From NCBI RefSeq assembly GCF_000020585.3, contig NC_011138.3, forward strand, positions 3,512,140-3,576,139: a DNA stretch of 64,000 nt, in the 5' to 3' direction. Origin of the DNA: Alteromonas mediterranea DE (GTDB taxonomy: Bacteria; Pseudomonadota; Gammaproteobacteria; Enterobacterales; Alteromonadaceae). Numbering within the stretch: the first letter of the stretch is position 1; each line of letters starts with the position of its first letter. A program made the translations under genes and the position numbers. The notes below the pieces were generated by a model, which saw nothing but the letters and a program-made list of their open reading frames with translations, was not told the origin of the DNA and made no database searches. Of the stretch, positions 55,990-58,202 are shown in pieces.

Positions 55990-56017
55990 TTGTATAGGCG
56001 CGCCGCATCGCTATAAT
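55990..56017 (+). promoter_or_regulatory. sigma-70 promoter of tRNA-Leu
   Basis: TTGTAT (55990-55995) and TATAAT (56012-56017) with 16 bp between, followed by a start region 29 bp before the tRNA. Confidence 0.75.
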
Positions 56018-56045
56018 GCCAAGCATTGATAGCATATCTATCTAC

Positions 56046-56132
56046 GCCAGAGTGATGAAATTGGTAGACATGACGGATTCAAAATCCGTTGCTAGAAATA
56101 GCGTGCCGGTTCAAGTCCGGCCTCTGGTACCA
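56046..56132 (+). tRNA. tRNA-Leu(CAA)
   Basis: 87 nt with encoded CCA. Acceptor stem GCCAGAG pairs with CTCTGGT (one G-U), anticodon stem ACGGA/TCCGT encloses loop TTCAAAA with anticodon CAA, a long variable arm GCTAGAAATAGC marks a class II tRNA, and the T arm GCCGGTTCAAGTCCGGC is complete. It reads UUG codons. Its 3' part is repeated downstream. Confidence 0.95.
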
Positions 56133-56164
56133 TTCTCTTTTTATTTACTAAGAAGAGAAACAAT

Positions 56165-56189
56165 AAACCGACCTTGAGTCGGTTTTTTT
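56165..56189 (+). terminator. tRNA-Leu terminator, copy 1
   Basis: AAACCGAC pairs with GTCGGTTT around CTTGA, then T residues to 56189. Confidence 0.9.
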
Positions 56190-56302
56190 GTGCCTGAACG
56201 AAATTGAATCGGCACGCCTAAAGCGCGCCGTCCGAGTGTCGGTCCAATCAAAGCCCGGCCTCTGGTACCATTCTCTTTTTATTTACTAAGAAGAGAAACA
56301 AT

Positions 56303-56327
56303 AAACCGACCTTGAGTCGGTTTTTTT
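56303..56327 (+). terminator. tRNA-Leu terminator, copy 2
   Basis: Exact duplicate of the hairpin at 56165-56189, 138 bp further on. Confidence 0.85.
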
Positions 56328-56421
56328 GTGCCTGTGGTTCTAACTTTCTCGTTAAACCACTCCCACAATAAACACCAGGCAAACCTTAACTATTTTTGGG
56401 TAGGTACGTTCAGCTCGGTCA

Positions 56422-56715
56422 TCACTCAAACGCTATAAGTACATCCATGCGCTGGTGCAATATTCTAGCGACCTCTATTCCAGCTTCGGTTTGCCAATAA
56501 TATACAATGTGCTTTTGCGCGGGAAAGCTTCTAGCCGTTTCAAACAGTTCAGGTCTGTTTCTTCCCAAAGTTGGAGTAGTCGCAATCTGAATCATAGTTT
56601 CATGTAGCAGCGACACGTATTTTTTCGCCTGAGACAGACCCCATTTTTCGATGGTCTTGGCGGATATGAGTCGCAAGTCTTCCTCAGCAAGCTCAGATAA
56701 TTTATACCTTGCCAT
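56422..56715 (-). CDS. ParE/RelE-family toxin
   Basis: Type II toxin of 97 residues. The compact alpha/beta RelE-ParE fold is seen in ARYKLSELAEEDLRLI, the Gly-Arg-Asn-Arg-Pro-Glu turn (TLGRNRPEL) and the C-terminal VARILHQRMDVLIAF, which is typical of the ParE branch (gyrase poisons) rather than mRNA interferases. It overlaps the end of the antitoxin gene by 14 bp, antitoxin first, as usual. The target has not been shown. Confidence 0.88.
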   Translation of the reverse strand: MARYKLSELAEEDLRLISAKTIEKWGLSQAKKYVSLLHETMIQIATTPTLGRNRPELFETARSFPAQKHIVYYWQTEAGIEVARILHQRMDVLIAFE

Positions 56716-56962
56716 CGATTTCTTTGCTCACTTCAGCAAAAATATCCAGCGCAGACTTATCGGAAGTTTGCCCATCAGACAACTGTTTAAAGCCCTTGCC
56801 AACCTCTTCTCTTAGTATCTCAAGTTGCTGTTGTTTCGAAACATCTTTTTCAAACAACAACCGTAAACCATCTCTGATCACCTCGCTTGCAGATGTGTAA
56901 AGTCCTGATGCAACTTTTTCATTGATGCGTTTTTCAAATTCAGAGCCAAGAGTAACGTTCAT
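56702..56962 (-). CDS. ParD-type ribbon-helix-helix antitoxin
   Basis: DNA-binding antitoxin of 86 residues partnering the ParE-like toxin. The N-terminal ribbon-helix-helix reads MNVTLGSEFEKRINEKVASG then SASEVIRDGLRLL (residues 1-36), and the rest is the toxin-wrapping tail. The ATG at 56962 has a perfect GGAGGTG site; a GTG at 56974 would add 4 residues. It probably represses its own promoter through the direct repeats upstream. Confidence 0.88.
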   Translation of the reverse strand: MNVTLGSEFEKRINEKVASGLYTSASEVIRDGLRLLFEKDVSKQQQLEILREEVGKGFKQLSDGQTSDKSALDIFAEVSKEIDGKV

Positions 56963-56973
56963 AAACACCTCCA

Positions 56974-57004
56974 CATGTTATGCTTATATTATGCGCATGT
57001 TATG
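56974..57004 (-). promoter_or_regulatory. direct-repeat operator of the parDE-like pair
   Basis: CATGTTATG occurs at 56974-56982 and 56996-57004, 22 bp apart (two helical turns), just upstream of the antitoxin start. It fits a ribbon-helix-helix operator. Confidence 0.5.
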
Positions 57005-57168
57005 ATCATTTTGCTAATCTAAAGGTAGACTTTTTACAAAGTAGTACTAATTGCGCAAATTGGCTGGAATCTTGGTTGAGAATCAAAGTAGTTATGCAAA
57101 GAATTTGCAAAGTTTCTTTTTTGTCTGATAGGTAATTGATTTTATAAAACTAAAATAGCCACCGTCTT

Positions 57169-57223
57169 TTCAAAATCCGTTGCTAGCGATAGCGTGGCGG
57201 TTCAAGTCCGCCCACTGGTACCA
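57169..57223 (+). pseudogene. 3' fragment of a second tRNA-Leu(CAA)
   Basis: 55 nt match the 3' part of tRNA-Leu from the anticodon loop (TTCAAAA) to CCA, with differences in the variable arm and in the T and acceptor stems, where paired positions have changed together in the T stem (GGCGG/CCGCC). The 5' acceptor strand and D arm are absent; the preceding sequence is unrelated. A remnant of a diverged paralogue, or an attachment-site half. Confidence 0.75.
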
Positions 57224-57333
57224 AACATTAAACCAACTTTTCAGTTGGTTTTTTTGTATCTGAATTTCAACAAATCGCCACGCAAGCGTGTCGGCCGAGT
57301 GTCGGTCCAATCAAAGTCCGCCCACTGGTACCA
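57204..57333 (+). repeat. tail duplicate of the tRNA-Leu fragment
   Basis: The last 20 nt of the tRNA fragment (57204-57223) recur at 57314-57333, period 110 bp. The second copy follows the same 22-nt linker (57295-57316) that precedes the tail copy of the first tRNA. Confidence 0.8.
57231..57255 (+). terminator. terminator after the tRNA-Leu fragment
   Basis: AACCAAC pairs with GTTGGTT, followed by T residues to 57255. A tRNA-type terminator kept although the tRNA is broken. Confidence 0.8.
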
Positions 57334-57421
57334 TCTCTTCTTTATGAAGTAGATACTGAAACCGGCTCTACACCATAAACGGGGGATCAGTATTTATCCT
57401 GTTCTATTAATTTGGGGTAAA

Positions 57422-57778
57422 TCAGACGAGTAAATTAACTTCAAACAAAAGCTTTTTCAGGTCTTGTCTAGAATCAAAAACTAGAAGAAGAATGACTGTC
57501 TTTGTAGACTCTTCAACTCGGTAAAGCACCACATTATGACTATCGACAAGAAGCTGCCTGTATTCGGTTAACCCTAACTCCAGGAGCCTGTCACTATGAG
57601 GCGCAGAATACGGATTTCCAGAGAGTTGAGACTTAACTTTCGATTTAATAGCTCGCTTGGCCTCGTTTGCAACATTGTGATTAAATTTTCTGATTAAAAA
57701 TGCATCCAGTTTTTTCAAACAAAGTTTAAAAACCGGTGTCACTTTTATGCTGTATTCAATCGTCGTCAAATGCTTCAT
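57422..57778 (-). CDS. RelE/ParE-family toxin, second module
   Basis: 118-residue type II toxin. The fold is marked by FNHNVANEAKRAIKSKVKSQL, the SGNPYSAPHSDRLLELGLTEYR segment (about residues 54-75) and a C-terminal strand pair NVVLYRVEESTKTVILLLVFDSRQ. Its start lies inside the end of the antitoxin gene (23-bp overlap). Some residues typical of mRNA-cutting RelE enzymes cannot be judged without alignment, so the activity stays open. Confidence 0.8.
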   Translation of the reverse strand: MKHLTTIEYSIKVTPVFKLCLKKLDAFLIRKFNHNVANEAKRAIKSKVKSQLSGNPYSAPHSDRLLELGLTEYRQLLVDSHNVVLYRVEESTKTVILLLVFDSRQDLKKLLFEVNLLV

Positions 57779-57983
57779 CCAGATCCAATAGCCCGTTCTG
57801 TCGCGCTCTGCGTTCTGACAAATTTATGAGTTTTAATAATGCTATAGTTTGTTGCTGTTCTTCGTAGTCATTCGCATCCTGAATAACATACTTTGGCTTG
57901 CCATTTTGCGTGACCAAAATGGGGTTATCCAATTCCAGATGATTCGCATGTTCCTTCATGTAAGATACAGTTTGAGTTTTCAT
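57756..57983 (-). CDS. Phd/YefM-type antitoxin
   Basis: 75-residue antitoxin. The N-terminal Phd fold MKTQTVSYMKEHANHL is followed by NPILVTQNGKPKYVIQDANDYEEQQ (about residues 20-44), the family hallmark, and a flexible toxin-binding tail ending in acidic residues. A longer frame to 58097 is open but the ATG at 57983 matches the family start. It should bind the palindrome just upstream. Confidence 0.85.
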   Translation of the reverse strand: MKTQTVSYMKEHANHLELDNPILVTQNGKPKYVIQDANDYEEQQQTIALLKLINLSERRARQNGLLDLDEAFDDD

Positions 57984-57997
57984 GACAATTTCTATTG

Positions 57998-58011
57998 GTC
58001 TAAATATAGAC
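57998..58011. promoter_or_regulatory. palindromic operator of the phd-like pair
   Basis: GTCTAAATATAGAC has 5-bp perfect arms; a related half (ATAGAC) recurs at 58025-58030. Placed 14 bp before the antitoxin start, as expected for autoregulation. Confidence 0.5.
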
Positions 58012-58202
58012 TTATTATAGTCCGATAGACGAAAAATGAAACGGATAGATTTCCGAGTGGACCGCAATATTTTTATGATATGCCTATACCGGAACATTTA
58101 TTTAATACTTCATTTCGCACTGCCTAACAATTGAAGAAACCAAACAAACCAACTAAAGTCGCTCAACATTAACTCTTCAAAACTCCTTAAAGGCTTTAAT
58201 TA

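Follow-up and report, generated by a model that had tools for sequence, protein, structure and literature searches.

Introduction

Repeats that end in a copy of an upstream stable RNA were first described in 1978 and are now named tRNA-linked repeats (TLRs) in PMC8144298, the available part of which counts 22 of them in ten loci of Escherichia coli K-12 and describes their 3' end as matching that of the preceding tRNA or rRNA exactly over 18-19 bp. According to the same part of that report, TLRs had no known function before it, and an early claim that they act in the recovery from amino-acid starvation has since been withdrawn. It also describes rrA, rrB and rrF of E. coli, which are reported to be transcribed and processed along with the stable RNA, are produced by read-through past the first terminator, bind Hfq and CsrA, and copy the upstream stable RNA at their 3' end, but are linked to 5S rRNA; here the TLR lies between two rRNA-operon terminators, an arrangement like that of the unit behind tRNA-Leu(CAA) reported below. 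In our literature search, to which subscription papers were mostly out of reach, such repeats were treated only in PMC8144298. The units of the tyrT and tyrV loci of E. coli, which stand in tandem at tyrV, combine an antisense T arm with a T-arm strand in the sense direction, an insert rich in hairpins and the tail, and the rttR of these loci is the Rfam family RtT (RF00391), which lies within the E. coli TLRs. Genomic islands as described in the available part of the Islander report (PMC4383910) combine a restored tRNA with a displaced 3' fragment at an anticodon-loop site, as is also the case here.

Two repeat units at one tRNA-Leu(CAA) locus

The window referred to throughout is the whole stretch of DNA that was analysed, 64,000 nucleotides of Alteromonas mediterranea DE (contig NC_011138.3, positions 3,512,140 to 3,576,139), and positions are counted from its first base. 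Its relevant features are as follows.

56046..56132, forward strand: intact tRNA-Leu(CAA), allele B, with the T-stem strand GCGTGCCG and the acceptor GCCAGAG/CTCTGGT
56113..56196, forward strand: first copy of tRNA tail, trailer and terminator-like hairpin with a T run (terminator recognised by eye)
56207..56270, forward strand: repeat unit 1, made up of a left arm at 56210-56217 that is antisense to the tRNA strand GCGTGCCG, a right arm at 56223-56230, a hairpin core at 56232-56242 within the 22-nt linker (56232-56253), and a tRNA tail copy
56251..56334, forward strand: second copy of tail, trailer and terminator, 99% identical over 84 nt
56422..56715, reverse strand: ParE-type toxin gene, cargo of a small element
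56702..56974, reverse strand: ParD-type antitoxin gene, cargo of the same small element
57095..57178, forward strand: putative right end of an integrative element, with TGCAAAG-AATT-TGCAAAG (57095-57112), a spacer and the core TTCAAAATCC at the tRNA anticodon loop
57169..57223, forward strand: displaced 3' half of tRNA-Leu(CAA), allele A, with GCGTGGCG and CCCACTGG
57272..57333, forward strand: repeat unit 2, made up of a left arm at 57276-57283 that is antisense to GCGTGGCG in the displaced half, a right arm at 57286-57293, a hairpin core at 57295-57305 within the 22-nt linker (57295-57316), and a tail copy
57422..57778, reverse strand: second toxin gene (ParE_toxin, 23.7 bits, cut-off 23)
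57756..58097, reverse strand: PhdYefM-type antitoxin gene

The three repeats named in the preliminary description proved exact: 56117-56196 equals 56255-56334 at 80 of 80 bases, the 20-nt tail 57204-57223 recurs at 57314-57333, and the 22-nt linker is identical in both places. The first repeat can be extended to 84 nt with a spacing of 138 nt, and the linker, at up to two mismatches, is restricted to its two places in the 4.48-Mb genome; a chance repeat is thereby ruled out. ARAGORN called a single tRNA in the window, and tRNA was the sole family that reached its cut-off in an Rfam search of it. Unit 1 lies directly 3' of the tRNA gene and unit 2 directly 3' of the displaced half, to which its tail is identical at 20 of 20 positions, while the tail of unit 1 comprises 16 exact tRNA nucleotides, slightly fewer than 18, followed by one mismatch, after which the identity continues through the trailer. 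A further element, missing from the preliminary description, is the antisense arm just 5' of each linker, which is the reverse complement of a strand of that unit's own tRNA.

The second tRNA part had been described as a diverged tRNA-Leu fragment, and the linker as independently associated with two tRNAs. Instead, 57169-57223 is a 55-nt copy (91% identity) of the 3' half of the same tRNA-Leu(CAA), beginning at the anticodon loop, so that both linker copies belong to two alleles of one locus. One tRNA-Leu(CAA) gene was found in this genome, where the regions around 61 tRNA matches were fetched and 60 tRNAs were called in them by ARAGORN.

Comparison with the tRNA-linked repeats of E. coli

A likeness to E. 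coli tyrT had been proposed, and it holds: the tail copies at tyrT, tyrV, proK, lysV and argV share the layout of the window units. Among 26 E. coli tRNAs, taken from nine places picked from prior knowledge, tail copies were detected behind seven (proK, argQ, argZ, argV, lysV, tyrV and tyrT), and five of these seven loci carry an antisense stretch of 8-13 nt (equalled in 0-9 of 200 shuffles), the tail copies of argQ and argZ being without the arm. The same shuffle test gave 9/500 for allele A and 26/500 for allele B of the Leu units, the latter being weak, 1/500, 11/500 and 70/500 for the Gly units of loci L186, L082 and L161, with L161 weak, and a weak 31/500 for a Ser unit; the arm was absent from the tRNA-Pro (490/500) and tRNA-Leu(UAA) (219/500) units.

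Both the E. coli TLRs and the window units lie just 3' of a tRNA and copy its 3' end at their own 3' end, and the numbers of copies per locus, 1-3 behind tRNA-Leu(CAA) and up to 7 behind tRNA-Pro, also fit the TLR definition. They differ in the core: six of the seven E. coli loci (lysV excepted) have GTTGC..GCAACG followed by a GGCCCG-type stretch, in place of which the window units have CCGA-GTG-TCGG. In keeping with this difference, the RtT covariance model had no match in 56000-57420 at E values up to 10. The window units thus fit the positional definition of TLRs, not the E. coli core sequence, and are likely a TLR-type repeat with a new core. Elsewhere in this genome, the unit behind a tRNA-Ser(UGA) gene (L123:507-680, from G000:C1:2368650-2373800) has a perfect stem around an AGGAC loop by eye and resembles RtT below the threshold (32.2 bits against a cut-off of 45, E 0.0035).

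Anatomy and distribution of the units behind tRNA-Leu(CAA)

Linker-like units were gathered from 77 sequences by a profile. Their general layout runs from a terminator through a left arm, a loop, a right arm, the core CCGA-GTG-TCGG and a few bases to the tRNA tail, with a left arm that is antisense to the variable/T-stem strand of the tRNA. In 22 tRNA-Leu units, which were hand-picked and had their tRNA allele entered by hand, it matched at 8 of 8 positions in 16, and it fitted its own allele better than the other allele in 21, with one tie. The unit can also be viewed as the 3' end of a tRNA in which a longer, hairpin-bearing loop has taken the place of the T loop.

When the linker was searched across the genus with up to three mismatches, as the preliminary description had suggested, it was found in 17 of 59 genomes, with one match in the reversed control. 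The number of units behind tRNA-Leu(CAA) varies between species, some having none. By script, a core-like match was present within 250 nt of 23 of the 51 tRNA-Leu(CAA) genes, a count that fell to 20 after those of G004, G025 and G034 were dropped on inspection as terminator matches. The units are dispensable, because no unit was recognised for the remaining 31 of 51 genes, among them G018 with only 86 nt downstream and G016, in which a worn unit had been overlooked by the script. A longer linker form with a second hairpin, absent from the window, occurs in 10 of 395 genomes of the family, in three genera.

The same hairpin core behind other tRNAs

Tail copies were detected by script behind three tRNAs of this genome, tRNA-Leu(CAA), one tRNA-Gly(GCC) gene and one of the two tRNA-Ser(UGA) genes, and the tail copy in the unit of the second Gly gene is shortened. 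The tRNA-Gly(GCC) unit contains the same core, CCGAGTGTCGG, together with an arm antisense to tRNA-Gly. In 394 genomes of the order, the core 15-mer CCGAGTGTCGGNCCA was found at 19 places in 11 genomes, against 17 places in 15 genomes for the reversed control, so that the count by itself is not above chance and the case rests on where the matches lie. Fifteen of these matches, including both of those in the window, fall within copied tails or displaced halves of tRNA-Leu(CAA), tRNA-Gly(GCC), tRNA-Pro(GGG) or tRNA-Leu(UAA) and span four families, the genomic setting having been inspected for the 19 core matches only. The other four have no tRNA in their 3-kb locus; one of these is an inverted core pair (L164, near position 1515).

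Within the family of the tRNA-Pro units the core was present in 7 of 152 genomes (16 places; reversed control 9), four of which have units behind tRNA-Pro, including seven tandem units of 140 bp in G1170, and within that of the tRNA-Leu(UAA) unit in 1 of 150 genomes, the one already known. A search for tRNA-Gly units in the genus gave 30 loci from 30 of 59 genomes, and 27 of the 30 have tail copies with a unit, a share biased upward by the choice of the best-scoring loci. In 53 tRNA-Gly units the left arm matched at 7.30 of 8 positions on average against 5.98 of 8 for the right arm, being better in 41 and worse in 5. Longer tRNA-Gly copies with a T-loop hairpin were seen in L190 and L193, both nearly whole, and in L209, and a degenerate tRNA-Leu with such a hairpin in L151 and L152.

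The proposal of a unit specific to tRNA ends was borne out by the core in the tails of tRNA-Gly, tRNA-Pro and tRNA-Leu(UAA), and a single local duplication is ruled out by the spread of the linker in the genus, by the core behind other tRNAs and by the tRNA-Gly units. The preliminary description had held that a linker found at one locus only, or only in prophage att sites, would favour a local duplication or an integration scar; neither applies, since none of the open reading frames in the 3-kb loci with arrays behind tRNA-Pro and tRNA-Gly looked integrase-like by eye. Taken as a whole, that interpretation stands in its likeness to tyrT and its link to tRNA ends, and fails in the independent association with two tRNAs in the window.

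Several other readings of the core were rejected. As a class-wide repeat it was found at 6 places in 369 genomes against 5 in the reversed control, three being the Alteromonas places already known and three being without a tRNA in the 3-kb locus, and an exact match in Acinetobacter gandensis, which lies by eye within an MFS transporter gene, was treated as chance. A mini acceptor stem with NCCA was abandoned in view of the CGA or AAA found at this position in tRNA-Gly variants. When phage and plasmid collections were compared with 57090-57360, 23 phage records and one plasmid record matched short parts, none covering 80% and the ten phage matches listed, with the plasmid one, covering 13-24%. 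Two viral contigs match the tRNA-Gly core exactly, with no tRNA called in them by ARAGORN, and the tRNA-Leu form had no such exact match.

Pairing and covariation of the hairpin stem

The hairpin was examined in an alignment of 39 single-hairpin tRNA-Gly units out of 57 distinct ones (L082 included), the other 18 being excluded for a second hairpin, a double core or upstream tRNA sequence running on. Four stem forms occur (CCGA:TCGG, CCGG:CCGG, CAGC:GCTG and CAAC:GTTG). The proportion of paired cells was 98.7% against 82.8% after shuffling, and the covariation score was 0.428 against 0.128, a score that can rise from sequence relatedness alone; neither value was reached in any of 500 shuffles, and slid controls stayed at or below 0.12. 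Pairs changed on both sides (124/500 shuffles as good) and further pair types (68/500) did not stand out; these are the measures least sensitive to relatedness, in a helix of only four pairs. The tRNA-Leu units, which vary little, gave weak results (92.5% paired, 23/500; score, 25/500; pair types, 178/500) and a consensus fold of -1.25 kcal/mol. These data suggest, on evidence from the tRNA-Gly variants that is good but not final, that the shape of the hairpin is kept by selection, and the same variants support a probable function for it.

A protective role of the hairpin or the left arm in the folding of the upstream tRNA was not supported by in-silico deletion and shuffling. The mean T-stem probability was 0.50 for the native sequence, 0.61 with the hairpin deleted, 0.48 with the hairpin shuffled and 0.66 with the left arm shuffled, and the native sequence was better than the hairpin-shuffled one in 18 of 36 cases and better than the left-arm-shuffled one in 10 of 36. 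Once a unit was included, the predicted partner of the tRNA's acceptor strand lay elsewhere, whether the sequence was native or altered (0.95 for the tRNA alone, 0.0007 for the native sequence).

Overall, we favour, with moderate confidence, the reading that the units are TLRs of a new subfamily with a hairpin core of its own, structured, probably co-transcribed with the tRNA and kept matched to it by recombination. Each unit reproduces, in degenerate form, the 3' part of the tRNA that directly precedes it; a short stem-loop interrupts the T loop, and inverted T-arm sequence often lies ahead. The unit would be transcribed together with the tRNA, most directly behind tRNA-Gly, where no terminator is visible between tRNA and unit, and, by the parallel of the E. 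coli rrB TLR, would yield a small structured RNA; a small RNA may thus be made from the units. Recombination within the shared tail could lengthen and shorten the arrays and keep the units in step with their tRNA.

A possible but rather unlikely alternative is that slippage, together with gene conversion with the tRNA, duplicated the tail neutrally in tandem, the linker being a functionless frozen accident. It would agree with copy numbers that range from none to several between species, with the nearly perfect and therefore probably recent 138-nt duplication in the window, and with the E. coli TLRs, which had no known function, as the available part of PMC8144298 puts it, before its own data on three of them. 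It does not lead one to expect the same hairpin behind four kinds of tRNA in four families, or the compensatory stem changes of the tRNA-Gly units, which beat every shuffle in score and in cells paired, though not in the two other measures.

An integrative element at the tRNA anticodon loop

The second allele in the window is a displaced half left behind by an integrative element crossing at the anticodon loop. The restored tRNA (56046-56132) and the displaced fragment share their orientation, as in genomic islands integrated into tDNA. Tycheposons, to which this locus can be likened, are cargo elements at tRNA genes of marine bacteria. The TGCAAAG-AATT-TGCAAAG arrangement was found 25 times, in 19 of the 59 Alteromonas genomes, and nowhere in the reversed control, and we take it as the putative right end of a family of integrative elements at tRNA-Leu(CAA). 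Unlike islands with an integrase, the 1-kb element of the window carries a toxin-antitoxin pair only: no tyrosine integrase gene was found in it, and the open reading frames of 56335-57168 are the ParE/ParD pair and an antisense 63-aa frame. In L034 (G028) the flank is collinear with the window (89%) from position 57094 on, and about 11.5 kb separate it from the tRNA.

Relatives of a 441-aa integrase (matched by the PHROG integrase family at 5e-13 and by no Pfam family at E 0.001) were found in 23 of 59 Alteromonas genomes at E 1e-40. By position, these lie between the tRNA and the displaced half in G015, G016, G022, G023, G028 (a remnant) and G041, and adjoin the displaced half in G008 and G053; the one relative in the present genome (G000:C1:336451-337737) lies at a great distance from the window. 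Beside the integrase, near a displaced tRNA-Leu half, stands a Kiwa defence pair (KwaA and KwaB, L041:9582-11073). Similar cargo proteins occur at this hotspot in three genomes (L041:7077-7841, L035:8865-9626 and L037:9090-9848), and the L041 protein has an Mrr-type nuclease domain and a zinc ribbon by Pfam, which was applied to that protein only. A GGCTCTACCCCATAAA-type sequence, present at 57364-57392 and in several relatives, adjoins the cargo and may be an insertion-sequence end. Six loci (L047, L052, L054, L064, L070 and L072) have a 5' tRNA piece of about 40 nt ahead of the intact tRNA-Leu(CAA), with a gap of about 115-130 nt that contains TGCAAAG-type repeats.

Twenty-four of the 25 right ends were tallied. 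Nine have a T-loop hairpin inside the displaced half (six by script, and three, with the variant stem CCGG-TGA-CCGG, by eye), five have a unit just downstream (four by script, and L092 from the profile collection), and ten have neither, one of them with only 156 nt visible.

These figures bear on a further explanation, which we consider improbable for the units as a whole: that they are worn attachment sites, with tail copies remaining from repeated integration and excision by tyrosine recombinases at the anticodon or T loop, and with the linker representing the element-specific half of attP. That right ends precede displaced halves in so many genomes, that nine of the 24 have the hairpin and five a downstream unit, and that the integrase family lies between tRNA and displaced half or beside the half in eight genomes would all agree with it. 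Against it, the ten other right ends have no hairpin, halves with a T-loop insert regain normal tRNA sequence 5' of the hairpin, something not required of an attP half, compensatory stem changes are unexpected for scars, and the arrays behind tRNA-Pro and tRNA-Gly are without a visible integrase-like gene. The att-remnant reading thus accounts for some of what is seen at tRNA-Leu, but leaves the arrays behind tRNA-Pro and tRNA-Gly unexplained.

Under the preferred reading of the units as TLRs, the element family crossing at the anticodon loop of tRNA-Leu(CAA) would carry and displace tRNA 3' halves, which brought units, or the T-loop hairpin itself, along with them; this would be why the window has two linkers.

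Implications

Least probable, and offered as a speculation, is the idea that the hairpin of the T arm acts as an independent device: seated in the T loop of a copied tRNA 3' end, it would spoil the copy as a tRNA part and, in the displaced half of an integrative element, lock the element in. If this were true, excision would rebuild tRNA-Leu(CAA), for which a single gene was found, with a broken T loop, the loss of the element would be punished, and TLRs in general would be disarmed tRNA tails living off tRNA transcription and recombination.

As a subfamily present behind several tRNAs, the units described here would give TLRs a common anatomy, a testable structural signature and natural variants with 0 to 7 copies. 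They would also connect TLRs to a highly active hotspot of integration, where the cargo includes the Kiwa pair, the Mrr-type nuclease and toxin-antitoxin genes. For genome annotation, the subfamily may account for tRNA-tail repeats and broken tRNA copies that would otherwise be taken for att scars.
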